A stretch of 38,215 nucleotides of DNA from a virus. The stretch's first letter is position 1, and each line of letters starts with the position of its first letter. Under the pieces are notes generated by a model that worked only from the letters and a program-made list of their open reading frames with translations, was not told the origin of the DNA and ran no database searches. A program made the position numbers and the translations under genes. The DNA lies in the IMG/VR virus record IMGVR_UViG_3300028115_000055, positions 1-38,215 of that record, one strand, 5' to 3'. Below are positions 1 through 38,215 of this stretch, in pieces.

Positions 1-102
1 AAGTTAAACTTACAGCAGAAGAAGAAGCAGCTAAAGAAGCAGAAATTGCACAAGCAAATATTGATAAACAAGCTAGAGAAGCTGCTAGAGTAGAAAAAGA
101 AA
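1..102 (+). repeat. 102-nt perfect direct repeat, left copy
   Basis: Bases 1-102 are identical to 37520-37621. The first mismatch is at base 103 (T versus C). Beyond it both copies continue as homologous but diverged coding sequence, and the genes downstream differ (a C1q-like fibre here, an IPT/TIG fibre at the right end). It therefore behaves as a paralogous gene duplication and not as a clean terminal redundancy. Confidence 0.9.
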
Positions 103-182
103 TTAAAAAAGCATCTGCTAAACAAAAACTTTTAGATTTAGGATTAACTGAAGAAGAAATTAAATTAACATTTGGATTATAA
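1..182 (+). CDS. Tail-fibre chaperone-like small protein, 5' truncated
   Basis: The first complete codon is at base 3 and the stop (TAA) is at 180-182. The visible 59 residues are highly charged and helical (Ala/Glu/Lys-rich, ending LLDLGLTEEEIKLTFGL). They align end to end with the complete 70-residue protein at 37489-37701, so about 11 N-terminal residues are missing because the window begins inside the gene. The first 102 nt are identical to 37520-37621; the copies then diverge. A C1q-like fibre gene follows after 2 bp. By position between fibre genes it may be a fibre assembly factor, but no named family is recognised with certainty. Confidence 0.75.
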   Translation, partial: VKLTAEEEAAKEAEIAQANIDKQAREAARVEKEIKKASAKQKLLDLGLTEEEIKLTFGL

Positions 183-184
183 TT

Positions 185-694
185 ATGGCAATAACAAAAA
201 TACAATCTGAAAGTCTTAACCTAAGCGACAACTACGATTTCACAGGAACTGTAACTGGTGCTGGTGGTGTTAATACACCAAATTTTTCTTATTATAAATC
301 TGGAAGTTCACAAGTAATTAGTAACGCTACAGTTACTAAAATTACTTATTTTAATGCACAGTCATACGATACTCATAGTGCTTTTTCTTCTGGTAGATTT
401 ACAGTTCCATCTGGTCAAGCAGGAAAATATTGTTTTTTTGTAACTATTTCATCTGACGCAACCTCTGTAAATACAACTAATTATTTTCAATTAGAATTTA
501 AAAAAAATGGAACTTTAACTCAAGGTACAAACAATATGTTAAGACCTGCTTATGCACAATTTCAAATATTTACTGTATCTGAATTAAGTGTTGGAGATTA
601 TATAGAGGTATTTATCTATCAAGATAGTGGAAGTAGTATTCAATTAGATGGTAATACAAGAACATTTTTTGCTGGATATAAATTAATAGAATAA
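185..694 (+). CDS. C1q/TNF-like jelly-roll fibre or receptor-binding protein
   Basis: This 169-residue protein begins MAITKIQSESL, a short leader typical of marine-phage fibre proteins. Residues about 55-169 show the C1q-like strand pattern: GRFTVPSGQAGKYCFFVTIS, then FQLEFKKNG, QFQIFTVSELSVGDYIEVFIYQ and a closing FFAGYKLIE. Such domains trimerise and occur in phage tail tips and fibres. It lies 2 bp after the truncated chaperone-like gene and 12 bp before another chaperone-like gene, so it is one unit of the fibre/chaperone array. The fold call rests on pattern only; the receptor is unknown. Confidence 0.72.
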   Translation: MAITKIQSESLNLSDNYDFTGTVTGAGGVNTPNFSYYKSGSSQVISNATVTKITYFNAQSYDTHSAFSSGRFTVPSGQAGKYCFFVTISSDATSVNTTNYFQLEFKKNGTLTQGTNNMLRPAYAQFQIFTVSELSVGDYIEVFIYQDSGSSIQLDGNTRTFFAGYKLIE

Positions 695-706
695 GGAGGT
701 AAAACT

Positions 707-1036
707 ATGGCACAACTAAGTAACAAAATAAAAGAATACTGCAAAGCTAATGGAGTTAGTGAAGTAGATTTTATGAATGATGTTAAGTTGCAAGACGACA
801 GTAATGGTCAAGGTGCGTATATAGCTGAGTGGAACTTAGATATTGCACAACCAACTGACGCACAACTAGCATCTTATGAAACTGCTGCAAATACTGCTGA
901 AAGTAATGCAACAGTCGATGCAACAAGAAGAAGCCAATATGGTTCTTGGGGAGATCAGTTAGATGAAATCTACCATGACATTGAAGCTTGGAAAACAAGA
1001 ATACAAACAATCAAGGATAATAATCCAAAAGGATAA
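707..1036 (+). CDS. Putative tail-fibre assembly chaperone (XkdW-like C-terminus)
   Basis: This 109-residue protein has the C-terminal pattern YGSWGDQLDEIYHDIEAWK followed by IQTIKDNNPK. That resembles the YPSIGDQLD...W...I..VK...PK tail shared by small phage proteins encoded beside fibre genes (XkdW-like, putative chaperones). A perfect Shine-Dalgarno, AAGGAGGT at 693-700, overlaps the stop of the upstream fibre gene and sits 6 nt before the ATG. It is among the strongest ribosome-binding sites in the window and suggests high translation. The chaperone role is inferred from motif and position. Confidence 0.65.
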   Translation: MAQLSNKIKEYCKANGVSEVDFMNDVKLQDDSNGQGAYIAEWNLDIAQPTDAQLASYETAANTAESNATVDATRRSQYGSWGDQLDEIYHDIEAWKTRIQTIKDNNPKG

Positions 1037-1039
1037 TTA

Positions 1040-1960
1040 ATGGCGTATATAGGTAGAGATACAGATAAAATAAGTAATGTAGAGGTACTGGATAACATTA
1101 CCTTTGATGGTAGTTCATCATACACATTACAAAAAGGTGGAAGCAATTTTACACCTAGTTCTGCGAATACATTATTAGTTAGTATTAATGGTGTAGTTCA
1201 AGCTGGAAACTTTACTGTATCTGGTTCAACAATAGATTTTGGAACAGCAGTTGCTGGAACATCTACTTGCGATTTTATTTTACATTATGGAATTGGATTA
1301 ATTACATCAGTTAGTGATGGCACAGTTACTACTGCTAAACTTGGCGATAGTGCAGTTACTAATGCTAAAGTAAATGCTTCAGCAGCTATAGATTATTCTA
1401 AATTAAACTTAACTGGAAATATTGCATTAGCAGATTTATCAGCAACAGGAACTAAAGATGCTACAACTTTTTTAAGAGGAGATAATACTTTTGCAGAAGC
1501 TGGTGGTGGAAAAGTTTTACAAGTAGTTTCAACTGAAAAATCAGATACATTTAGTTCTTCTGGAACTAGCTTTCAAGATATAACAGGATTGACAGCAACT
1601 ATAACTCCATCTTCAACTTCAAGTAAAATTTTAGTTTTGGTTAATATATCATCTGGTGCAGATAATGGATATAAATATGGATTTAGACTTTTAAGAAGTG
1701 GAACAGTTATTAACGAAGGAGATTCAGCTAGTAGTAGAAAATTAGTTTCAATAGGATTACATAGTGGTTCAAGTATTTCATTTGAAAGTAGTAGTATTGT
1801 TTATTTAGATAGTCCAAACACTACATCTTCAAGACAATATGATATACAAGGTTCTACTGAAGGTTCAAATTTTTATGTAAATAGAACTTATACTGATACT
1901 GATGCTGCTTCTCATATGAGAGCTACATCAAATATAACTTTAATAGAGATAGGTGCATAA
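1040..1960 (+). CDS. Modular tail fibre / receptor-binding protein
   Basis: 306 residues. The N-terminal part (about 1-95) has the MAYIGRDTDKISNVEVLDNITFDGS type of start, a virion-attachment-like region. Next comes a low-complexity stalk (TTAKLGDSAVTNAKV), then the block LSATGTKD plus TTFLRGDNTFAEAGGG at about residues 135-157. The variable C-terminal domain begins KVLQVVSTEKSD. That block recurs in the fibre at 36545-37480. The C-terminal domain resembles the whole of the next fibre-like gene (ATITPSSTSSKILVLV versus ATITPTSTSNKIIILV). It ends in a TAATG overlap with the next gene. Confidence 0.75.
   Translation: MAYIGRDTDKISNVEVLDNITFDGSSSYTLQKGGSNFTPSSANTLLVSINGVVQAGNFTVSGSTIDFGTAVAGTSTCDFILHYGIGLITSVSDGTVTTAKLGDSAVTNAKVNASAAIDYSKLNLTGNIALADLSATGTKDATTFLRGDNTFAEAGGGKVLQVVSTEKSDTFSSSGTSFQDITGLTATITPSSTSSKILVLVNISSGADNGYKYGFRLLRSGTVINEGDSASSRKLVSIGLHSGSSISFESSSIVYLDSPNTTSSRQYDIQGSTEGSNFYVNRTYTDTDAASHMRATSNITLIEIGA
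1481..1509 (+). repeat. 29-nt identical fibre-junction sequence, copy 1
   Basis: Bases 1481-1509 are identical to 36911-36939 and encode DNTFAEAGG. In both fibre genes this marks the boundary between the conserved stalk and an unrelated C-terminal domain, as expected of a recombination joint. Confidence 0.85.
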
Positions 1961-2253
1961 TGGCAGATTTACACAAAGCAATTAGAGCAATTCATAATTC
2001 AGTTGTATCTATAAATGGAGATACACAAGAAAATATTGTTGCAAAAGATAATGATGGAAATGAAGTAAGTATTAATTGGTCATCAGTTAATGCTTGGATA
2101 GACCCAGATACATACAAATATAATAGAGAACAAGAATATCCATCAATTCAAGAACAGTTAGATATGCAATACTGGGATAAGGTTAATGGAACAACAAATT
2201 GGCAAGACGCAATAGCTAAAGTTAAATCAGATAACCCAAAGGTAGATAGTTAA
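1960..2253 (+). CDS. Putative fibre assembly chaperone (XkdW-like tail)
   Basis: 97 residues. The C-terminal half, EYPSIQEQLDMQYWDKVNG and then TNWQDAIAKVKSDNPK, matches the pattern at the end of the 707-1036 protein. The N-terminal half (INGDTQENIVAKDNDGNEVSI) differs and may contact a specific client. It is linked by one-base TAATG overlaps to the fibre genes on both sides, implying translational coupling within the array. The role is inferred. Confidence 0.6.
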   Translation: MADLHKAIRAIHNSVVSINGDTQENIVAKDNDGNEVSINWSSVNAWIDPDTYKYNREQEYPSIQEQLDMQYWDKVNGTTNWQDAIAKVKSDNPKVDS

Positions 2254-2744
2254 TGGCAATAATAACTTTAAATAATAATTCTTTATCTAGTGTAACAGCA
2301 TTACCTGCTGGTGTAGGTGGTAAGGTTTTGCAAACTGTTACTAGCACAAATAATCAACAAATATCTACAACTTCAACATCTTTCGTTGCAACAAATTTAA
2401 AAGCTACAATCACTCCAACCTCAACTTCAAATAAAATTATTATACTTGTAAGTGGAACTGTGTATAACAATACAGTTGAAAAAAATACTTTAGTGACAGT
2501 ATATAGAGGTGGTGTTTCATCTGGAACAAATCTTGGTTCAGGTGGAAGTTTTAGTTCACTTTCAAGAGTTTATAGTGCTGGTGGAGAAATTGTAGTTCCT
2601 ACTGCTGTTACATTTGAAGATAATCCATCTACTACATCAGCTACACTTTTTGAAGTAGCAATAAAAATAGACCCAAGTGGTACAGGATATTTTGGTATTA
2701 ATAATGAAAAAACATCAATAGTTTTAATGGAGATAGCTGGATAA
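2253..2744 (+). CDS. Short fibre-tip protein homologous to the C-terminal domain of the 1040-1960 fibre
   Basis: 163 residues. After a 20-residue leader (MAIITLNNNSLSSVTALPAG) it is essentially one beta-rich domain starting GGKVLQTVTST and ending TSIVLMEIAG. It parallels the tip domain of the upstream fibre, which starts GGGKVLQVVST and ends SNITLIEIGA. This fibre therefore lacks the long stalk and encodes almost only the receptor-binding-like tip. One-base overlaps couple it to both neighbours. Confidence 0.65.
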   Translation: MAIITLNNNSLSSVTALPAGVGGKVLQTVTSTNNQQISTTSTSFVATNLKATITPTSTSNKIIILVSGTVYNNTVEKNTLVTVYRGGVSSGTNLGSGGSFSSLSRVYSAGGEIVVPTAVTFEDNPSTTSATLFEVAIKIDPSGTGYFGINNEKTSIVLMEIAG

Positions 2745-3079
2745 TGATTATAGAAGCAATATTAAAAATAAATCCTAACGCAGAAGTATCTGTAAGTGGT
2801 AATGATATTAATACAGTTCAATGGCACAATGGAACAACACCTATTTCTAAAGCTGACATACAAGCACAATTACCTATTGTAGAATTTGATATGGCTATGG
2901 AAGATTTAAGAGCCAAAAGAAATAAACTATTAGCAGATACAGATTACCTTGCGTTATCTGATAATACTATGAGTGCAGAGATGACAACTTACAGACAATC
3001 TTTAAGAGATATAACAAATGGTTTAACTACTGTTGCTGATGTTGAAGCTGTAGTTTTTCCTACTAAACCAGCTTCTTAA
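2744..3079 (+). CDS. Phage tail assembly chaperone-like protein (PF16778-like)
   Basis: 111 residues. Residues about 55-90 (LRAKRNKLLADTDYLALSDN, then YRQSLRDITNG) match the R..RN.LL..tD....D...YR..LRdi pattern of a phage tail assembly chaperone family found beside fibre genes. It is the last gene of the rightward virion operon in this window. Its 3' end overlaps by 17 bp the convergent metallophosphoesterase gene on the other strand, so no room remains for an independent terminator. Confidence 0.7.
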   Translation: MIIEAILKINPNAEVSVSGNDINTVQWHNGTTPISKADIQAQLPIVEFDMAMEDLRAKRNKLLADTDYLALSDNTMSAEMTTYRQSLRDITNGLTTVADVEAVVFPTKPAS

Positions 3080-28055: not shown

Positions 28056-31000
28056 ATGAAAATAACAGCTTTACAATTATCACAAGCTGGGTTTGATACA
28101 GACACCATAAAATCGTATGTTGATACCCAAATACCTCTTTTAGAAAAAGCAGGATTTAATAAAAAAGAAATTTACAATAGTTACGGTATAGTACCTATTA
28201 AATCTAATTCATTATTAGATACTGATATGCAGGAAGACACAACTGCTATTACAGAAAATCAATTACCTTTAGGTAAAAAAACATCATTAATGAAATTACA
28301 AGATGAAGAAAATGCTAACACAATTAAATCTAACAAAACATCTGACGGTAAATACAATCTTAAAAACACTACATTTGATTTATTAAAGAATGAAGATCAA
28401 GCTAAAATTGTAAATAAAATAGATGAAGCATATAAATTATTTAAAGAAGATGATGATGGTAGAGTAGGATTTATAGATAATTGGATGGAAAAATACTATC
28501 CAAACATAGCATATGAAAAAGAAAAATTTAAAAGTGGTGTAGATTTAACTTTAGCAGAAAGTGCATTAAATGATGAACAAGTTAAATTATTAGAAAATGC
28601 ACAAGCTAAAGATGCTATTGCAGGTAACTTTGGTTTTAATCAAGAAACAGGTAGATATCTTTTTGATACAAATTTTGAACAAGCTGAAGATGAAAGAAAA
28701 GCTAATGAACCTGTTAATGTATTACATACAGCTTTTTCTACAGGTGCTAACTCAAAAACAATATTAGAATATGCTAAACAAAATTATGAATTTAATGATA
28801 TGCAAATTATGTATCTTAATGAGTTTATGTCATTTGTTTCAGCGTTAGAAAGTAATAATAGAAATATTTACAATGCAGATGGTAGTGCTGGTGGTTTATT
28901 TCAATTTAGAAAAAGTGGTTTTAGAACTGCTTTAAATAGATTTATAAACATAAACAGAAAAATAAATAAAGATTATGAATTACCTTATTGGGTAACAGAA
29001 GCATTTAAACATCAAGACCCTACAAGATTATCACCAGATGAACAAAAATCTTTAGCATTAGCTAACTTTTTAGAAATGCCTAAAAGTGAAAAATATAATC
29101 GTGCTGGTTCAGATCAATTAATTAAAGCAATTGCTAATGGTGATGTTGATGCAATGAAAAAATTATACATTGAATATCATCATGCTGATTATGAAAAAGT
29201 AGAAGATATAGAAGCAGGTGTAGGACAAGAATATAGACTTGTTGATAATCAAAAATTAAAAGAAAGAACTGACCAATATTTTGATAAATTTGGTACAGAT
29301 AAATATGATTATGAAACTGCACAATTAGCTTATTGGGGTAATGACAATATTGTAACTAAAGCATTAGAAAAATTACCTGCAAATATAGGTGATAAAGTTT
29401 TAAATGCTTTTGGTGGTAAAGGTTATTACAACGTATTTACAAATGGATACGAACAATCTGTTAATGGTATGTTAGACAGATATTATCAAGTATTTATTGA
29501 TGATCCTAATGCTGATCCTAAAGAAGCAATACAAAAAGTATTTATGTATCAAGAACAAAGATTTGATAAAGATATTGTTGCATCTGCTGTTACGTTAGTA
29601 AATGATTTACCATTTATGGCGGCAGGTTGTTTTGCGGCAGGTGGTACAGCTTTAGTTGGAAGTGCAGGTACAGCCGCACCTGCGTTACCTGTTATATGTG
29701 GTGCTGGTGGTTTTGCATTACCAGAAGTTATTAGATCAGCTTATATGAGAGCAATAGAAGATAATTTTGTAGGATCATTTCCAGAATTTTTAAGTCATTA
29801 CATGGATAAAAAAACAGCAATTGTTGCTGGTAAAACAGCAGTAATTGGTGGTGTTACATTTGGTGTTGGTGCAAAAGTTAAAGCATTAACAGGAAGTACA
29901 ACAGCTAGATTAGCTTCAGAAGTAAGTGTTATGACTACATTAGGTGCGGCATTAGAAGGCCATGTACCTACAATGAGAGATTTTGCTCATGCTACGGTCT
30001 TGGTTTTTGGAATACATGGGTCAATACGAGGTATGAAAATGTTTAAAGACATTTATACTGAATACGGCAGACACCCTAGAGATGTAATTAAAGACATGGA
30101 AAAAGACGTGACTGTTAGACATCAAATAGAAAATGGTCAAATGCCAACTCTTTACGAACAAGGTGCTAAAACAGTTGTAGAAGGATTAGAGAAACAAACT
30201 AACATTAAATTATTACCTCCACCAAAATTTAAAAACAATGAAATTGTTAATGTATCCACATCTTCTACAGAAGTTGGTAGGGTAATTGGCAAAGAAACAA
30301 TTGGTAATGAAAAAGTTGTTATAATTGAAAAAACAAATGGTGCTAAAATACCAGTATTAGAAAGTGAAGTTAGAAAAGCACCAAACAAACCTGTTGAAGT
30401 AAAAGTAGAAGGTGACAAAATTAATATAAATTTTGCTAAAGATACATCATTTGCTGAAAGAAAATCTAATGGTGAATTTAATGTTAATGTTGTTGAAGTT
30501 ACAAAAAATAAACAAAATATTTATACAGAAGGTACATTTAAAAGTAATGCTGACTTAGCTGTAAGAGATACAGGAAGCGCAATAAGAATAGTTACAAAAG
30601 ATGGTAAGACAATTGCTAATGAAACAATAACTATTCAATCTAAATTTTACCCAGAATTAGCAAAAAGATTTAAAGAAAACAAAGAACAAAAAACAGAATA
30701 CAATAACGCCAAAGAATTAATTACTAAAGAACGTAATGGTTTATCTTCAGTAGCTAAAAAAGTTGAAATTTTATTTGCATTAAAAGGCAATATTGAAAAA
30801 ATGATTTTAAGAGTTGGTAAAGACAATGTTGCTATACCAAGATCAGCATATGAACAATTAATTAAATTTACTGAAAAAGGTGAGGTTAAAACTGCTGAAA
30901 TAATGGGTAGTGAAGGAAGACAAGTTATAATGATGTTGCATCCAGAAACAGGTAAAATTTTAGCAACTATAAAAGGTGAAAAAATTAATGGTGAAATAGA

Positions 31001-34000
31001 TGCACAAGCTACAAATTATTTTGATAACTTTAAAGAAAAAGAAGGTGTATATTTTGATAGAGTAAACAGTAGTAAAGATGGTGATAACTGGGGAATACCT
31101 AGAGATATATTTACACAAGAAAAGAATTTACCAACAGACTACGCAAACAATTCTGCGGCATGGAAAGGTTTATTTAATTCAGCAAAAGGATTAGATATGA
31201 TTGATCTTGTAGAATTATACAAAGCATTTGTTAAAAAATCACCAGAACTAAATAACTTACCAACAGGTCTAAATGGTTACTTTCAATTTAAAGGCAAGAA
31301 ATCACCTAGAATAGTTATTAACGAAGCATTACAAAAAAACCCAGAACAATTTTTAATGACATTTGCACATGAGTTAGGGCATTTAATTGATTATTTGCCA
31401 AACGCTACTTTATCAAGAGGTAATATATTAGGTTCTATAGCGGCTTTAAAAGGATACATGAACAAATGGATTGATGGTAAAAATGAAGGTGCAAAACCAT
31501 TAAGTGCAAAAGAAATAGAAGCTATTAAATCAGCCGCAATCAAAGAAGCAAAAGCTAAAGAAAAAGAAACTAACGCAGAAATCAAACAATTAGAAATAAC
31601 TCCAGATACTATACTTAAAATATTTAATGATGCATCTGCTAGAGAAAAGATTAATCCAGATTTTTATAATGCATTTGTAAAACTACCTGCTGAAGTTAAA
31701 AAATTAGTAGTTAAAGATGCAATGAAAGGTTTAATGTCACAACACATGAAAGCTATTGCAGATAAGATTAATGGCAAACCTACTGATAGCAGATTAACTA
31801 ATGAAGCATACAAAATCTTTAAAGATAAATTTGAAAGAATAATCAAAGAAAGAGGATTAGTTAATAAAGAATGGATTACTACAGAACTTAAAAATTTATC
31901 TGCAAAATGGAAACCATTTGATAGAAGTGCTAGAGCAGATTACACAGCATATAGAGATGGCCCTAGAGAACTAATGGCAGATTTTATGATGGCGTTTATG
32001 CTACGACCACAATGGGTTAAAAACAATGCACCTAGAACATGGGAAATGTGGATGCATTATATGGATGCTAGACCAGAAGTAAGAGCAAACTGGGAAAGAA
32101 TACAAATAGATTTAAAATCTGGAACAGACAAAAGATTAGGTAAAGTAGTATCAGACATAGGTAATATGTTTAGAGAAACTAACGAAGCTACAATCAAACG
32201 AATAGAAAAAGATTACAAACCAGATTTAGCTGATGTTCTTGGTACTGAAGCAATTGATAACTTTTTTTGGATATATAGAAGATTTAGAGGAACTGGTAGT
32301 GATAGATGGCATAGTCCATTAGCAAAAGAATTAAACTGGTCAATTGAAAACTACAGATACCGTCATGCTAAATTAAAAAGATACACAGATGATATGATGC
32401 GTAAAGTTGTAAAACCAGCAGAAGAACTAGGATACAACAGTATTGATATTGGTACTATGTTATTTTTAAGAAACATAGCTGAAAGTTCACAAAGAAACAA
32501 ATTAGTTAATTCATTAGGTATTATGAAAGTAAATCCAGAATTAGCAAAAGTATTAGGTAATAGAACTGCAAAAGAAATATATGATTATTATGTAAAATTA
32601 CATCCACAACTATTTGAACTAACAAATGAGTTTTACAAAGTTAGACAAGAAATGGTTATTCCAGAATTAAAAGAAAGTGGAATGTATGACAAAGAATTAA
32701 TTGCTAAATTAGAAAACAACAAAGAATACGTTACATTTAACGTAAGAAAATATTTGTTAGAACGTATAGAAAAATACGGGCCAAACTCAAGTGCTACAAG
32801 ATTTTTAAAAGGGTCAAAAGGTACGTTTGATGACATTATGAATGTATTTAATGCAACACTTGAAAAAGATATGTTGTTAATGGTTGAAGCTAAAAGACAT
32901 AGAACAATGGCTTTAACTGTTAAATGGTTAAGAGAAAATAAAAATTGGATGGAAACATATGGAAAAAAATATGGCGCTTACGGTGCTAAAGTAAAAGATA
33001 GAGTTGTTTACAAACCTAAATTTATTGGAAAAGGTAAATTAGAAAAACCAGCTAAAGGCATGGAATTATTTAGTTACATGAAAGACGGTAAGATGCAACA
33101 TTGGCACGTTAATAAATTTGTAGCACAATCATTTAAAGAAAATCCAAACGGTACAATGATGATGTACAAAATTATGACAGGAACAGGTGATGTATTTAGA
33201 AAAATGTTTACTGAATATAATCCTGCTTTCTGGCCAATTAACTTAGCTAGAGATTTAAACAGATCAGTTAAATTATTACCTAATGCTAGATATATAGATA
33301 TTACTGGTAAAGGTAAAAATTCATTATTAAAATATTATTTTAAAGCAGTTAAACCTGCATACCAATCTATTTTTAAAGATGGTACTGAACTTACTAGATG
33401 GATGGAAAGTGAAGGTTTTTTAATTTCTATGAATGAAGGATATAGAGGACAAGCAGGTAGTAAAGCATTAATGAAGGGTCTTGATCCAGACACATATATG
33501 CTTGAAAGATTGCTTGGTGATATGCAAAAGAAAAAAGGATTTGATAAATTTTGGAATGATACATTTGGTCATTTATTTTCTACACTAGGTAACTTTGCTA
33601 GAATGTTTGAAAGAACACCTAAAATTGCAGGAACTATGTATTTAAAAGATGCAATTAAAAGAGGTGATTTAAAAATGAATGATAAAGAAATGATGTTAAG
33701 AATACAATCGGAAGTAGGATCACCAAACTTTTTAAGACAAGGTAGATTAAATGCATTTACTAATAATTTATATTTATACTCTAACGCATTTAAAGAAGGT
33801 TGGAGAGCAGATATAACTAGATTTAGAGAAGACCCTGCATCAGTTGGCGGTAAGTTTATAGCTTACAATGTAATGCCTAAAATTTTACAAAAAATGATGG
33901 AAGTAGGATTATTCGGTGCTTCGTTAGGTATGGTTTACAAATACGGTATATCTGATTGGGATAAAATAAATTACATTCCAATTGTTTTAGGTGAAACACA

Positions 34001-34814
34001 AGATGGAAGACCAGTATATTTAAGAATACCACAAGACGAAACATCTAGATTAATTAATGGATTTTTATACAAAGCAATGAGTATTGGTGATGATGGAAAA
34101 ACAGGTACATTTGAAACACCTGCTGATTTATTTGGTTATTTAGGATCATCTGGATTACCTTCTATGAACCCAGTATTTAGTTTATTTGGTGATGTTATTG
34201 GATGGATGAATGGTACTACTCCATATGATGATTTTAGAGGAACTACAGCAATTGATAAAACAACTGACAAAGCAGATGATGCTAGAAAAAACAAAGAGTT
34301 ATTAAAATGGTTCTTTAATACTTATTCTGGTCAAGGTTTATATAAATTTAAAAGCAATGATTACAAAGAAATATCATCAGAATTAGAAGAAATGCTTGAT
34401 ATGCCAGTAGTAGGTAGAATACTTAATAGATTTGTAAAAATTGGTAATAATCCAATAGTAGGATATATGGAAAATTCTGAAGGTGGATTACAACAATACG
34501 AAAAAGAAAATGCTCAAGTTACACTTGATTTTAAAGAAGCTATTGTAAATTTAACTACGGGTGAGCCATTAACCAATAAACATAAAATGGCATTATTAGC
34601 AAGAAGTGAAAGTTTAAAAACTAATAACTTATTAATTGACAGATTATCTCAAATGGCTGGTGGTACAGTATTGTTACAAGATTTCTTAACTGAAACAGAC
34701 AGTAAAAAACAAGCTATTATGGTTATGAAGTTAGTTGAGTTTATTGAAAAAACTGATAATACGTATCCTATTAACTTTATTAAAGAACAAAAATCTGATA
34801 AAATAGAAGAATAA
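28056..34814 (+). CDS. Giant ejection protein (T7 gp16-like) with transglycosylase and HELGH metalloprotease motifs
   Basis: 2252 residues, the largest gene. Residues about 255-345 look like a lytic transglycosylase: MSFVSALESNNRNIY (candidate catalytic E265), then GGLFQFRKSG from 279. A hydrophobic stretch near 515-560 (PFMAAGCFAAGGTALVGSAG) could cross a membrane. FAHELGHLIDY at about 1103-1113 is a zincin motif (H1105, E1106, H1109). The C-terminal quarter (NYIPIVLGETQDGRPVYLRI, PQDETSRL) resembles LPD38. By analogy it opens peptidoglycan and spans the envelope during DNA entry; T7 gp16 is 1318 residues and has no protease. Confidence 0.82.
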   Translation: MKITALQLSQAGFDTDTIKSYVDTQIPLLEKAGFNKKEIYNSYGIVPIKSNSLLDTDMQEDTTAITENQLPLGKKTSLMKLQDEENANTIKSNKTSDGKYNLKNTTFDLLKNEDQAKIVNKIDEAYKLFKEDDDGRVGFIDNWMEKYYPNIAYEKEKFKSGVDLTLAESALNDEQVKLLENAQAKDAIAGNFGFNQETGRYLFDTNFEQAEDERKANEPVNVLHTAFSTGANSKTILEYAKQNYEFNDMQIMYLNEFMSFVSALESNNRNIYNADGSAGGLFQFRKSGFRTALNRFININRKINKDYELPYWVTEAFKHQDPTRLSPDEQKSLALANFLEMPKSEKYNRAGSDQLIKAIANGDVDAMKKLYIEYHHADYEKVEDIEAGVGQEYRLVDNQKLKERTDQYFDKFGTDKYDYETAQLAYWGNDNIVTKALEKLPANIGDKVLNAFGGKGYYNVFTNGYEQSVNGMLDRYYQVFIDDPNADPKEAIQKVFMYQEQRFDKDIVASAVTLVNDLPFMAAGCFAAGGTALVGSAGTAAPALPVICGAGGFALPEVIRSAYMRAIEDNFVGSFPEFLSHYMDKKTAIVAGKTAVIGGVTFGVGAKVKALTGSTTARLASEVSVMTTLGAALEGHVPTMRDFAHATVLVFGIHGSIRGMKMFKDIYTEYGRHPRDVIKDMEKDVTVRHQIENGQMPTLYEQGAKTVVEGLEKQTNIKLLPPPKFKNNEIVNVSTSSTEVGRVIGKETIGNEKVVIIEKTNGAKIPVLESEVRKAPNKPVEVKVEGDKININFAKDTSFAERKSNGEFNVNVVEVTKNKQNIYTEGTFKSNADLAVRDTGSAIRIVTKDGKTIANETITIQSKFYPELAKRFKENKEQKTEYNNAKELITKERNGLSSVAKKVEILFALKGNIEKMILRVGKDNVAIPRSAYEQLIKFTEKGEVKTAEIMGSEGRQVIMMLHPETGKILATIKGEKINGEIDAQATNYFDNFKEKEGVYFDRVNSSKDGDNWGIPRDIFTQEKNLPTDYANNSAAWKGLFNSAKGLDMIDLVELYKAFVKKSPELNNLPTGLNGYFQFKGKKSPRIVINEALQKNPEQFLMTFAHELGHLIDYLPNATLSRGNILGSIAALKGYMNKWIDGKNEGAKPLSAKEIEAIKSAAIKEAKAKEKETNAEIKQLEITPDTILKIFNDASAREKINPDFYNAFVKLPAEVKKLVVKDAMKGLMSQHMKAIADKINGKPTDSRLTNEAYKIFKDKFERIIKERGLVNKEWITTELKNLSAKWKPFDRSARADYTAYRDGPRELMADFMMAFMLRPQWVKNNAPRTWEMWMHYMDARPEVRANWERIQIDLKSGTDKRLGKVVSDIGNMFRETNEATIKRIEKDYKPDLADVLGTEAIDNFFWIYRRFRGTGSDRWHSPLAKELNWSIENYRYRHAKLKRYTDDMMRKVVKPAEELGYNSIDIGTMLFLRNIAESSQRNKLVNSLGIMKVNPELAKVLGNRTAKEIYDYYVKLHPQLFELTNEFYKVRQEMVIPELKESGMYDKELIAKLENNKEYVTFNVRKYLLERIEKYGPNSSATRFLKGSKGTFDDIMNVFNATLEKDMLLMVEAKRHRTMALTVKWLRENKNWMETYGKKYGAYGAKVKDRVVYKPKFIGKGKLEKPAKGMELFSYMKDGKMQHWHVNKFVAQSFKENPNGTMMMYKIMTGTGDVFRKMFTEYNPAFWPINLARDLNRSVKLLPNARYIDITGKGKNSLLKYYFKAVKPAYQSIFKDGTELTRWMESEGFLISMNEGYRGQAGSKALMKGLDPDTYMLERLLGDMQKKKGFDKFWNDTFGHLFSTLGNFARMFERTPKIAGTMYLKDAIKRGDLKMNDKEMMLRIQSEVGSPNFLRQGRLNAFTNNLYLYSNAFKEGWRADITRFREDPASVGGKFIAYNVMPKILQKMMEVGLFGASLGMVYKYGISDWDKINYIPIVLGETQDGRPVYLRIPQDETSRLINGFLYKAMSIGDDGKTGTFETPADLFGYLGSSGLPSMNPVFSLFGDVIGWMNGTTPYDDFRGTTAIDKTTDKADDARKNKELLKWFFNTYSGQGLYKFKSNDYKEISSELEEMLDMPVVGRILNRFVKIGNNPIVGYMENSEGGLQQYEKENAQVTLDFKEAIVNLTTGEPLTNKHKMALLARSESLKTNNLLIDRLSQMAGGTVLLQDFLTETDSKKQAIMVMKLVEFIEKTDNTYPINFIKEQKSDKIEE

Positions 34815-34816
34815 TT

Positions 34817-36196
34817 ATGACAATTACTACTACTATTATAAAAAACAGTTATTCTGGAAATGGAAGTCAAACAGTATTTCCATACACATTTAAAATTAAT
34901 ACGGATGCTGATATACAGGTTCTTGTTAGATCATCATTAGGTACTGAAACATTAAAAACATTAAGTACAGATTACACAGTTAGCGGTGCAGGTGATGCAG
35001 GTGGTGGTAATGTAACTATGATTGTTGCACCTGCAACTGGTGAAACATTAGTTATTAGAAGATCAACTACACAAACTCAAGAATTAGACTTAGTAGAAAA
35101 TGACCCTTTTAGTGCAGAAACAGTAGAAGGTGCATTTGATAAATCAGTATCATTAGTACAAGAAATTCAAGAAGAAGCAGATAGATCAATTAAATTATCA
35201 AGAACAAACACTATGACATCAACTGAATTTACAGTTGGTGCTACAGAACGTGCTAACAAAGTTCTTGCATTTGATAGTACAGGTGAATTATCAGTTGCTC
35301 AAGAATTAGGGCAATTTCAAGGCAATTGGTCATCTGGTGAAACATATGCTCAAAGAGATATTATAAAAGATACATCTAATGGAAACATTTATATTTGTAT
35401 AACAGCACATACTTCAAGTGGCGCACAACCTATTAGTACAAATACTGATAGCGCAAAATGGTCATTATTAGTTGATGCAGAAAGTGCAACTTCATCTGCA
35501 ACTGCGGCGGCGGCAAGTGCAACTGCGGCGGCTACATCTGAAACAAATGCGGCTACATCCGCTACTGCGGCGGCAACTTCAGCTACCAATGCGGCAACGT
35601 CTGAAACTAACGCATCAACTTCAGAAACTAATGCGGCGGCTAGTGCAACAACAGCATCTACTGCGGCAACCAATGCTCAAACAAGCGAAACTAATGCGGC
35701 TACCAGCGAAACTAACGCCGCAACTAGCGCAACCAACGCATCAAATTCTGCTACATCTGCGGCCAGTTCAGCAACTACAGCTACCACAAAAGCTAGTGAG
35801 GCATCTACATCAGCTACAAACGCCGCAAGTTCAGCGTCATCAGCATCTACATCTGCGACTAACGCATCTAACTCTGCAACTGCCGCAAGTACATCTGCGA
35901 CTAACGCCGCTAACTCTGCTACTGCATCTGCAAGTTCAGCAACATCTGCGGCTACTTCTGCTACTGCGGCTGAAGCGGCATATGATAATTTTGATGATAG
36001 ATATTTAGGGCCAAAAGCTAGTGACCCTACATTAGACAATGACGGTGATGCTTTGTTAGATGGGGCATTGTATTTTAACACAACAACAAATGTTATTAAA
36101 TATTATGATGGATCAAGTTGGTCACCAGTTGAAGCAGTAGATACATCTAATTTAGCAACAAATGGGTTTAGCATTGCAATGGCGATAGCCCTGTAG
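34817..36196 (+). CDS. Primary tail fibre with gp17-like N-terminus and Ala/Ser/Thr heptad stalk
   Basis: 459 residues. Residues 1-150 (SYSGNGSQTVFPYTFKINTD, ENDPFSAETVEGAFDKSVSL) match the T7 gp17 N-terminal attachment domain. About 172-218 (GNWSSGETYAQRDIIKDTSN, then YICITAHTSS) resembles a ChiA/CBM5-12 carbohydrate-binding module. About 225-390 is a repeat stalk of SATNAAT/SETNAAT units. The end, DRYLGPKASDPTLDNDG and then GALYFNTTTNVIKYYDGSSW, is a common fibre C-terminal motif. It probably anchors the other fibre proteins, which lack a gp17 N-terminus. Confidence 0.88.
   Translation: MTITTTIIKNSYSGNGSQTVFPYTFKINTDADIQVLVRSSLGTETLKTLSTDYTVSGAGDAGGGNVTMIVAPATGETLVIRRSTTQTQELDLVENDPFSAETVEGAFDKSVSLVQEIQEEADRSIKLSRTNTMTSTEFTVGATERANKVLAFDSTGELSVAQELGQFQGNWSSGETYAQRDIIKDTSNGNIYICITAHTSSGAQPISTNTDSAKWSLLVDAESATSSATAAAASATAAATSETNAATSATAAATSATNAATSETNASTSETNAAASATTASTAATNAQTSETNAATSETNAATSATNASNSATSAASSATTATTKASEASTSATNAASSASSASTSATNASNSATAASTSATNAANSATASASSATSAATSATAAEAAYDNFDDRYLGPKASDPTLDNDGDALLDGALYFNTTTNVIKYYDGSSWSPVEAVDTSNLATNGFSIAMAIAL
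35485..35975 (+). repeat. Degenerate 21-bp coding repeats of the fibre stalk
   Basis: About twenty imperfect units encode seven-residue repeats such as SATNAAT and SETNAAT. GCG and GCC alanine codons make the tract far richer in G and C than the rest of the genome. The repetition opens long artefactual reading frames on the other strand and in another frame. Confidence 0.8.
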
Positions 36197-36210: not shown

Positions 36211-36537
36211 ATGGCACAAAATTTTAGAAGATACACAAGCAATGATGTAGGAACATCAGCATCAACTTTATTTACTGCTGACAGTTATGATACTGTAGTT
36301 GGTATATCAGTTTCAAATGTAACAGCATCTGCTGTTGTAGCATCTGTATATATTAATGATGGTTCTAACGATATTTATTTAGTTAAAGACGCACCAATAC
36401 CAAGTGGTTCATCATTACAAGTATTAGATGGAGGAGCAAAGTTTGTTGTTCAATCTGGTGATGCTTTAAAAGTAATATCAGACACAGCTTCATCTTTAGA
36501 TGTTTGGGTATCAACTGTAGATGCAATAAGTACATAG
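36211..36537 (+). CDS. Small structural protein of the fibre region
   Basis: 108 residues, beta-rich: YTSNDVGTSASTLFTADSYD, TVVGISVSNVTASAVVASVY, then KDAPIPSGSSLQVLDGGAKF and VVQSGDALKVISDTASS. This is the pattern of small virion proteins next to phage fibre genes, probably one beta-sandwich. AGGAT lies 7 nt before ATG. Specific role unknown; adhesin or fibre-linker are both plausible. Confidence 0.65.
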   Translation: MAQNFRRYTSNDVGTSASTLFTADSYDTVVGISVSNVTASAVVASVYINDGSNDIYLVKDAPIPSGSSLQVLDGGAKFVVQSGDALKVISDTASSLDVWVSTVDAIST

Positions 36538-36544
36538 GAGATTA

Positions 36545-37480
36545 ATGCCGTTTATAGGAAATCAACCAGCATTAAGTTACACAAGTTTTGCTAAGCAAGA
36601 CTTCACTACAAGTGCGACTACATCTTACACATTAGATAATCCAGTTGCTAACGCAAATGAGTTAGCATTATTTATTAACTTTGTAAGACAAGAGCCTACA
36701 ACTGCTTATACTGCTAGTGGTACAAGTTTAACTTTAACAAGTGCAACATCTGCATCAGATGATATGTACTGTGTGTTTTTAGGTAAAGCTGTTCAAACAG
36801 TAAATCCTCCAAATGGTTCAGTAGGTGCTTCACAGATTGCTGATAGTTCAATCGCTTTAGGAAAGTTATCTGCTACTGGTACAAAAGACAGTACAACATT
36901 TCTAAGAGGCGATAATACTTTTGCAGAAGCTGGTGGTGGTGCTATGGAACTACTACATACTGCAACAGGATCAGATGTTTCTTCAATAGATATTAATGGA
37001 TATTTTACTTCTGATTATGACCATTATAAATTAATTTATTCAGTTTATGCTGCAACAAATAATACAGATACTATGGTTAGAATAATGCAAGGTGGTTCAG
37101 TAATTACTGCTTCAAATTATTGGTTTGCTGGAAATGCTTGGTATTATGATGGAACTTATAGTCAATCAAGTAATGCTGTTGGATTTAATACAAATTATAT
37201 TGGAATTGCATCAACCGATAATACAAGTAATTCTCAATATCCAACAACAGGAGAAATGCTTTTATCCAATCCATTAAGCACAAGTCAAAACACTACTATA
37301 ACAACAAATAGCATTGGATATAATTCTGGAGCTGGAGCTGGTCAGCCACCTACTGCAATAAGAACTTGGAATTACGCTGGTACATATATTTCAACAACAG
37401 CAACTTCTGGAATTTCTTTTGGATATATTGGTGGAAATATTAATGGAACAATTAGATTATATGGAATGAAAAATAGTTAG
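36545..37480 (+). CDS. Modular tail fibre / receptor-binding protein
   Basis: 311 residues. N-terminal segment MPFIGNQPALSYTSFAKQDF and on (1-95, beta-rich, cf. NELALFINFVRQEPTTAYTA), then the stalk ASQIADSSIALGK. The junction block is LSATGTKD plus TTFLRGDNTFAEAGGG. The C-terminal domain is distinct (AMELLHTATGSDVSSIDING and on, ending GNINGTIRLYGMKNS). The same junction block occurs in the fibre at 1040-1960 with a different tip. GGAG lies 5 nt before ATG. Confidence 0.78.
   Translation: MPFIGNQPALSYTSFAKQDFTTSATTSYTLDNPVANANELALFINFVRQEPTTAYTASGTSLTLTSATSASDDMYCVFLGKAVQTVNPPNGSVGASQIADSSIALGKLSATGTKDSTTFLRGDNTFAEAGGGAMELLHTATGSDVSSIDINGYFTSDYDHYKLIYSVYAATNNTDTMVRIMQGGSVITASNYWFAGNAWYYDGTYSQSSNAVGFNTNYIGIASTDNTSNSQYPTTGEMLLSNPLSTSQNTTITTNSIGYNSGAGAGQPPTAIRTWNYAGTYISTTATSGISFGYIGGNINGTIRLYGMKNS
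36911..36939 (+). repeat. 29-nt identical fibre-junction sequence, copy 2
   Basis: Identical to 1481-1509 and encodes DNTFAEAGG. It separates the shared stalk from the divergent tip domain of this fibre. Confidence 0.85.
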
Positions 37481-37488
37481 GATTTATT

Positions 37489-37701
37489 ATGACAATGTAC
37501 AAATTATTAAATGGTGAAAAAGTTAAACTTACAGCAGAAGAAGAAGCAGCTAAAGAAGCAGAAATTGCACAAGCAAATATTGATAAACAAGCTAGAGAAG
37601 CTGCTAGAGTAGAAAAAGAAACTAAAAAAGCATCTGGCAAACAAAAACTTTTAGACTTAGGATTAACAGAAGAAGAGGTAAAGGCATTAATAGGCATATA
37701 A
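37489..37701 (+). CDS. Tail-fibre chaperone-like small protein, complete copy
   Basis: 70 residues: a short N-terminal strand (MTMYKLLNGEKVKLT), a long charged helix (AEEEAAKEAEIAQANIDKQA, then REAARVEKETKK) and an end LLDLGLTEEEVKALIGI. It has the size and composition of small helical proteins coded after fibres in marine phages. It is the intact homologue of the gene cut by the left window edge, with 102 identical nt. It sits between two fibre genes; its chaperone role is inferred. Confidence 0.7.
   Translation: MTMYKLLNGEKVKLTAEEEAAKEAEIAQANIDKQAREAARVEKETKKASGKQKLLDLGLTEEEVKALIGI
37520..37621 (+). repeat. 102-nt perfect direct repeat, right copy
   Basis: Identical to bases 1-102 and lies inside the chaperone-like gene. 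The identity ends at 37622, and the last part of the gene has drifted (EEVKALIGI versus EEIKLTFGL). Confidence 0.9.
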
Positions 37702-37702
37702 T

Positions 37703-38215
37703 ATGAGCGAAGTAAAAGTAAATAAAATCAGTCCTAGAACAGGAACCACGTTCACAATAGGTGATGCCGGAGACACGGTTACTACTGCAGGAGACATTTC
37801 TGCATTAAACATTACAGCAACTAATTCTTTAACTGTAAATGGTGAATCAGTTACTTCAGCGAATCCAACTTTTACATCTATTTCACCTGATACTATTACT
37901 AACGATCAAACATCTATTACAATTACAGGAAGTAATTTTGTATCAATCCCTGTTGTTGAAGCAATCTCAACAACTGGAGTCATCACACCAGCAGACAGTG
38001 TAACATTTAATAACTCAACATCACTTACTTGTAATTTTACATTAACAACAGATGGAACTTATTATATTAGAATTGAAAACAATGACGGTCTAGCGGTTCG
38101 ATCATCAACTGCAGTATTAACAGTATCAGATGCACCTGTATGGACCACTGCAGCAGGTGATCTTGGTACTATTGCTGGAGATTTTTCCGGAACTGTTGCA
38201 ACCGTTGCAGCAACA
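37703..38215 (+). CDS. Fibre protein with IPT/TIG-like Ig domain, 3' truncated
   Basis: 171 residues before the window ends with no stop. The start MSEVKVNKISPRTGTTFTIG, then DAGDTVTTAGDISALNITAT, is a fibre N-terminus common in marine phages. PTFTSISPDTITNDQTSITI, then TGSNF, is an IPT/TIG-like immunoglobulin fold (about residues 58-145). APVWTTAAGDLGTIAGDFSG at about 147 begins an Ig-like putative repeat. It begins 1 bp after the chaperone-like gene. It is another unit of the fibre/chaperone array; length and tip domain are unknown. Confidence 0.75.
   Translation, partial: MSEVKVNKISPRTGTTFTIGDAGDTVTTAGDISALNITATNSLTVNGESVTSANPTFTSISPDTITNDQTSITITGSNFVSIPVVEAISTTGVITPADSVTFNNSTSLTCNFTLTTDGTYYIRIENNDGLAVRSSTAVLTVSDAPVWTTAAGDLGTIAGDFSGTVATVAAT

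Follow-up and report, generated by a model that had tools for sequence, protein, structure and literature searches.

The window analysed here, a single linear IMG/VR virus record of 38,215 bp taken at its full length, begins and ends among genes in which tail fibres alternate with small proteins, which raises the questions of what these small proteins (hereafter helpers) do, how each is matched to its fibre and how many such units the array holds.

Gene order and unit number around the contig ends

Judged by homology, the window derives from a podovirus related to Pelagibacter phages, its contig being broken inside the host-recognition array. The tail and left-end regions match HTVC035P, HTVC100P, HTVC203P, Lederberg and Baldr, and the anchor gene at 36211 is followed by fibre and helper genes in the conserved order of a pelagiphage host-recognition array. 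The array ORFs all lie on the + strand and are closely packed, and every ORF named in an initial annotation of this DNA is present. The features are as follows.

34817..36196, +, main tail fibre in the T7 gp17 position: putative N-terminal attachment-type domain of about 117 aa, Ala/Ser/Thr-rich shaft, C-terminus ..NGFSIAMAIAL; PHROG tail protein matches over residues 1-117 and the shaft; homologues in HTVC isolates annotated 'putative tail fiber'
36211..36537, +, conserved virion structural protein, the anchor gene opening the array: viral-contig relatives 87-99% identical; homologues in HTVC phages annotated 'putative virion structural protein'
36545..37480, +, fibre F36545: conserved adaptor (residues 1-90), LRGDNTFAEAGGG linker, variable tip with LYGMKNS end
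36851..36939, +, adaptor/tip linker of F36545: 82% identical to window 1421-1509, a stretch of F1040; probable exchange seam
37457..37477, +, C-terminal signature LYGMKNS of F36545: predicts an NG..TAEEE N-module
37489..37701, +, putative chaperone c37489: N-module NGEKVKLTAEEE, LGLT C-module (KKASGKQKLLDLGLTEEEVKALIG)
37703..38215, +, IPT/TIG fibre cut by the contig end: Pfam TIG, E=1.5e-4; heads a TIG-LamG/SPRY-DUF7483 cassette
1..182 (ORF 3-182), +, small protein or putative chaperone cut by the contig start: C-module variant EEIKLTFG
185..694, +, short C1q-fold fibre: conserved N-terminal anchor MAITKIQSESLNLSDNYDFTGTVTGAGG, GYKLIE end; from alignment and AF2/Foldseek C1q fold
674..691, +, C-terminal signature GYKLIE of the C1q fibre: predicts an XkdW-type N-module
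707..1036, +, putative chaperone x707: XkdW N-module and GDQLDEIY..IKDNNPK C-module; Pfam XkdW, E=1.1e-17, and a profile match to the XkdW structure 2hg7, E=0.0012
1040..1960, +, fibre F1040: adaptor MAYIGRDT.., linker, tip; phrog_18673 tail fiber, 2e-24
1934-1957, +, tip end ITLIEIGA of F1040
1960..2253, +, putative chaperone x1960: N-module family N23, C-module EQLDMQYWD..VKSDNPK; phrog_9114, 1.5e-14
2253..2744, +, short fibre F2253: anchor NNNSLSSVTALPAGV and tip; phrog_6942 tail fiber
2718-2741, +, tip end IVLMEIAG of F2253
2744..3079, +, putative chaperone APC2744: NPNAEV N-module and Phage_tail_APC C-module; Pfam PF16778, E=9.9e-9; PHROG tail fiber assembly, 6e-17; solved relative 2kz6, E=7e-12 with profile

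In the isolates HTVC035P, HTVC100P and HTVC203P, the homologues of the right end and of the left end form one uninterrupted run of anchor protein, MPFIG-type fibre, C1q fibre, XkdW protein, fibre, small protein, short fibre, small protein, except that HTVC100P is missing the C1q fibre and has one additional fibre. An identical array order is found in two contigs whose record names point to single-cell genomes (L383 and L384). Since the homologues are contiguous in these isolates and contigs, we take the window ends to be neighbours across a broken circle, and the adjacency of 38215 and 1, which the initial annotation had presupposed, agrees with this gene order. The array is broken as well in related contigs of 38,710 bp (L038/L192) and 33,365 bp (L217/L341), both of which begin and end inside it; in the former, a C1q gene starts at one terminus and C1q genes lie at the opposite one. 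Breakage in this hypervariable island thus seems to be frequent in assemblies. Elsewhere in the window, positions 28056-34814 form a single ORF of 2252 aa, probably an internal virion protein, with a long-gene counterpart in Baldr and a much shorter one in HTVC035P, HTVC100P and Lederberg.

Four fibre/helper pairs are certain, namely, F36545 with c37489, the C1q fibre with x707, F1040 with x1960 and F2253 with APC2744. The further unit implied by the earlier count of at least five fibres and five partners depends on how a repeat at the contig ends is read: positions 1-183 are 91% identical to 37520-37702, the first 102 nt (37520-37621) being identical, and beyond these 102 nt one copy runs into the C1q fibre and the other into the TIG fibre. 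The simplest reading, which we consider likely, is an assembly branch, in which F36545 and c37489 would be followed by the C1q fibre in one strain and by the TIG fibre in another; the contig start lies exactly 102 nt before the copies first differ, as would be expected of a branch in an assembly graph. Near-identical N-modules within one locus were met in a single one of 678 small-protein comparisons, and the TIG-LamG/SPRY-DUF7483 cassette, complete in HTVC024P and known from about 100 loci, was followed by no recognised chaperone in the loci seen. For these two reasons, the position-1 partner and c37489 are probably a single gene, represented at position 1 by the c37489 locus of another strain, and the TIG unit may have its source in a co-assembled strain, that is, in a different genome. 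No exact match to a 26-nt stretch of c37489 was obtained elsewhere in IMG/VR.

That one genome holds the fibre at 36545, the TIG cassette and all left-end units, with at least five units and two near-identical chaperones, is in keeping with the window being one contig and with a locus (L132) showing that a TIG cassette can come after genes of the C1q-x707 type; we nevertheless find it unlikely, given the rarity of near-identical N-modules per locus, the helper-less TIG cassettes and the position of the contig start. A left-end chaperone closing a fifth unit was likewise judged less likely than the strain branch. With the assembly branch preferred, the earlier count holds for four pairs, and the TIG fibre is more likely an alternative branch than a fifth unit in view of the 102-nt identical repeat. 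TIG-LamG/SPRY-DUF7483 cassettes without a helper (e.g., L091 and L369) are alternative content of the same island in other loci, and they also occur in tandem, two or three times (L094 and L161).

Modules of the fibres and helpers

The N-terminus of the fibre at 34817 matches PHROG tail-protein N-termini, and no match to the Pfam gp17 N-domain was obtained at E<=0.1. The description of the short fibres as tip-only has to be given up, as conserved N-terminal anchors are present in them; these anchors are common to many loci (185-270, MAITKIQSESLNLADNYDFTGTVTGAGG; 2253-2300, NNNSLSSVTALPAGV). In the case of F36545, the adaptor is shared by 91 distinct fibres with a median identity of 81% over 110 residues, and these fibres bear 67 tip families. 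Over residues 91-150, the site of the LRGDNTFAEAGGG linker, identity drops from more than 80% to about 20%. Tips have therefore been exchanged behind a conserved adaptor, and the swapping that the initial annotation had raised as a possibility is borne out.

The AF2 model of F36545 has an ordered beta adaptor (residues 14-80), a disordered stretch (83-118) and a weak, beta-rich tip, with a mean pLDDT of 63.5, and a fold search returned weak beta-sandwich or lectin-like matches only. As the C1q gene is in frame with x707, the read-through translation of the two was folded as a single chain. The C1q part of this model clearly adopts a C1q fold (Foldseek E about 1e-8), in which the fibre end forms the last jelly-roll strand, and the x707 part consists of a helix, a hairpin and further helices; with a single-chain pTM of 0.56, the model does not establish the mutual placement of the two parts. 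Spacing between the C1q fibre and the XkdW helper (window 692-706 and relatives) is usually 12 or 18 nt, in frame, and 53 of 86 distinct cases are in frame 0, which possibly reflects just inherited spacing. Some loci (L004, L370 and similar) encode fibres of 400-460 aa with a coiled-coil-like EARITxLENA end and without a helper, as if self-trimerising.

By sequence comparison, the helpers appear to belong to known fibre-chaperone families or to resemble them. The protein x707 falls in XkdW (PF09636; 64 bits, gathering score 24.6) and APC2744 in Phage_tail_APC (PF16778; 35.4 bits, gathering score 26.6). No match to PF09636 was found for x1960, which shares PHROG 9114 with x707, and neither c37489 nor x1960 reaches any Pfam family. 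The helpers have a two-module build, in which the N-module tracks the fibre end and the C-module does not. The last 25 residues of c37489, its C-module (KKASGKQKLLDLGLTEEEVKALIG), are near-invariant behind many unrelated N-termini, and three loci from other phage backgrounds (L317, L318 and L328) again have the c37489 N-module behind the F36545 tip. Among the filtered pairs, 52 N-module and 24 C-module families were distinguished, occurring in 73 combinations once close N families were merged; NPNAEV N-modules sit on seven C-modules, and the XkdW-type N-module is likewise present on others. The C-modules are swapped independently of the N-modules. Describing the helpers as small helical partners was apt for the C-module, helices being predicted in the C-terminal half of x707, but it passed over the variable N-module. 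The helper C-module was also considered as a recombination seam at the DNA level, a reading with modest support (synonymous identity, 0.73 versus 0.61).

Fibre ends and helper N-modules

The main set comprised 354 non-redundant pairs of a fibre and a small protein, the latter encoded by the gene immediately downstream of the tail fibre gene; given this number, the array is well beyond chance. The comparison was between the first 35 residues of each helper and the final 70 of the fibre before it; the helper N-module covaried with the upstream tip (Mantel r=0.57, 354 pairs that are not phylogenetically independent), compared with 0.29 for the N-terminus of its own fibre, 0.27 for the N-terminus of the next fibre and 0.05 for the next tip. 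When like tips were carried on unlike fibre N-termini, the N-module was shared in 77% of cases versus 9.6% expected. For example, in one locus (L317) a tip about 90% identical to that of F36545 is attached to another fibre N-terminus, and the helper that follows combines the same N-module with an APC C-module (Phage_tail_APC PF16778, 43.4 bits).

Six correspondences between fibre-end signature and N-module were recognised: (i) GYKII(E/T) with XkdW-N, (ii) ITxMEIxG with NPNAEV-N, (iii) LYGxK with NG..TAEEE-N, (iv) FIRLGDT with WYGW-N, (v) xSEL with MIDTV-N, and (vi) TILTFTGSGSYT with AHFAKLG-N. Signature similarity is retained across different C-modules (0.366 versus a null of 0.194) and is absent where the C-module is the same and the N-modules differ (0.197). 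Nearest-neighbour prediction from the last 12 fibre residues, neighbours with an alignable tip being excluded, gave the right N-module family in 231 of 291 cases, whereas the majority class would score 81 of 291 and label shuffling yielded 15-20%; the poorly predicted families include AITKETQ and AHFAKLG. A second set, made up mostly of isolated phages of podo-, sipho- and myovirus type, a few of which are also in the first set, gave 31 of 39 correct families with each fibre's own row left out, among them those of Mosig EXVC030M, Kolga EXVC016S and a cyanophage. With their own rows left out, three of the four window pairs were predicted exactly, and the fourth (x1960, N23) was assigned to the NPNAEV class, which bears the same signature. 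A scan with a single XkdW-type helper sequence gave four loci, two of which (with names of single-cell genomes) fit the rule; the same scan also picked up a Bacillus locus, where neither the XkdW gene nor the fibre upstream of it could be made out.

Does the helper read the fibre end itself? Cognate chaperones might instead recognise the whole tip fold, the fibre ends being merely the last strand of each fold family. The C1q fibre, whose end is the last jelly-roll strand, would suit this explanation, and like fibre ends could simply mark a common tip fold. Along the fibre, however, the signal is strongest within the last 12 residues and hardly exceeds background at -20 to -9, even among tips that cannot be aligned, which argues against recognition of the entire fold; a weaker second signal at -44 to -25 points the other way. 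Recognition of the whole fold is, in our view, a serious possibility but not the one that we favour.

Adjacency offers another explanation, in that a fibre end and a helper start that are nearly contiguous could be co-inherited without any interaction. Synonymous identity of the signature is raised in the WYGW (0.81) and MIDTV (0.86) families, so linkage may contribute there, but synonymous sites are close to saturation in the NPNAEV (0.66) and NG..TAEEE (0.60) families (0.61 expected), which makes recent linkage unlikely for these two. The equally close junction between the helper C-module and the N-terminus of the next fibre, moreover, covaries much less, and where two fibres precede one helper, the first, helper-less fibre has the helper's signature one gene farther off in 66% of cases (29% expected; maximum over 1000 shuffles, 46%). 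Linkage as the sole explanation is therefore improbable. Scarcely more credible is the idea that the small proteins are no chaperones but virion-retained, receptor-binding tip adhesins like T2 gp38, for while some fibre-assembly proteins do stay on their fibres (Mu Tfa; PMC9608196, PMC10579305), the LGLT C-module hardly varies behind N-modules that are unrelated to one another, contrary to what would be expected of a part that binds receptors, and the hypervariable element is the tip.

The reading that we prefer, and consider probable, is that of a host-recognition island of anchor-linker-tip fibres with Tfa-like chaperones, the N-module of which reads the signature at the fibre end. Several steps can be envisaged: (i) each fibre would consist of an anchor, a linker and a receptor-binding tip and would presumably be trimeric; (ii) each small gene would supply a Tfa-like assembly chaperone for the preceding fibre; (iii) the N-module would dock physically on the tip end, reading the signature in the last 8-12 residues or so; (iv) the helical C-module would oligomerise and start trimerisation of the fibre from its C-terminus; (v) fibres without a helper of their own, which tend to bear the signature of the next helper, may share that helper. 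As the N-module matches the fibre end and both the C-module and the fibre adaptor are generic, tip and N-module would be exchangeable as a unit, and recombination in the conserved sequence flanking both sides may be the route by which phages trade it. The fibres of the array may all be carried on one virion. The initial annotation had staked its proposal, a repertoire of fibre tips with cognate chaperones, on, among other things, a relation of the small proteins to known fibre chaperones and covariation with the upstream fibre; both are found, together with tip exchange, and this part of the interpretation is supported.

More broadly, the last 10 or so residues of marine phage fibres could constitute a portable docking code, in which at least five signatures each recruit one class of N-module, the classes being combined with several interchangeable C-modules, and which works across phages of podo-, sipho- and myovirus type; we give this generalisation even chances. 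Tip and helper would, in that event, be tradable as a matched unit. How chaperones choose their fibres and how tips are swapped without assembly failure is known mostly from single pairs. Here, across hundreds of natural pairs, partners are predictable from a dozen residues, helper-less fibres included. If a helper does pick its fibre by the end signature, phages could trade receptor-binding tips along with the right helper. The rule makes chaperone choice directly testable, can annotate many 'hypothetical' small genes of marine phages and may aid in judging whether contig ends in such islands belong together.

Comparison with known systems

Mu Tfa and Pam3 gp25 bind the fibre through a variable N-terminal domain, and their conserved helical C-terminus serves trimerisation (PMC9608196). 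The helpers resemble them in both gene position and build: in all four window pairs the helper gene lies directly downstream of the tail fibre gene, and a variable, fibre-specific N-module is joined to a conserved helical C-module. They differ in being 60-130 aa long, in their many combinations of N- and C-modules and in occurring several per phage. Since Pfam and PDB comparisons gave no sequence match of the helpers to Mu Tfa or Pam3 gp25, we say that they would work like Tfa and do not class them as members. Bacillus phages Sam46 and Sam112 encode an XkdW-like protein beside the receptor-binding fibre gene, and mutations in its C-terminal helix alter plaque type (PMC8190038), which fits a role in tail assembly.

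The HTVC010P-type pelagiphages HTVC035P, HTVC100P, HTVC203P and HTVC034P, as well as HTVC019P, share with the window the anchor gene, the types of fibre and the families of helper, arranged much alike; compared with these regions, the window has one helper pair more and different tips. Arrays of more than one or two pairs had been thought unusual, a view that is not supported: pelagiphage isolates have 1-3 assignable fibre/helper pairs each, and HMO-2011 and Melnitz show similar alternating gene runs, so the four pairs of the window stand at the high end of normal. Fibre modules with a cognate downstream chaperone, common to distantly related phages, are known from Alteromonas phages V22 and A5 (PMC7289586, PMC10579305); in contrast to the array in the window, each of these modules contains a single pair, and the chaperone is larger.

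Under-recruiting marine metaviromic islands have been reported to contain genes for tail fibres, C1q, XkdW and fibre assembly (PMC3909814), and for HTVC010P-like phages conservation of a hypervariable structural/lectin region is reported (PMC10504331); in the parts of these two reports that bear on such regions, fibre-helper pairing, modular helpers and an end signature are not described. A rule linking fibre end and chaperone was not found in the open-access literature. The kind of array described here is thus already known, and the apparent docking code, in which a fibre-end signature would specify the chaperone, is put forward as a new, candidate claim.
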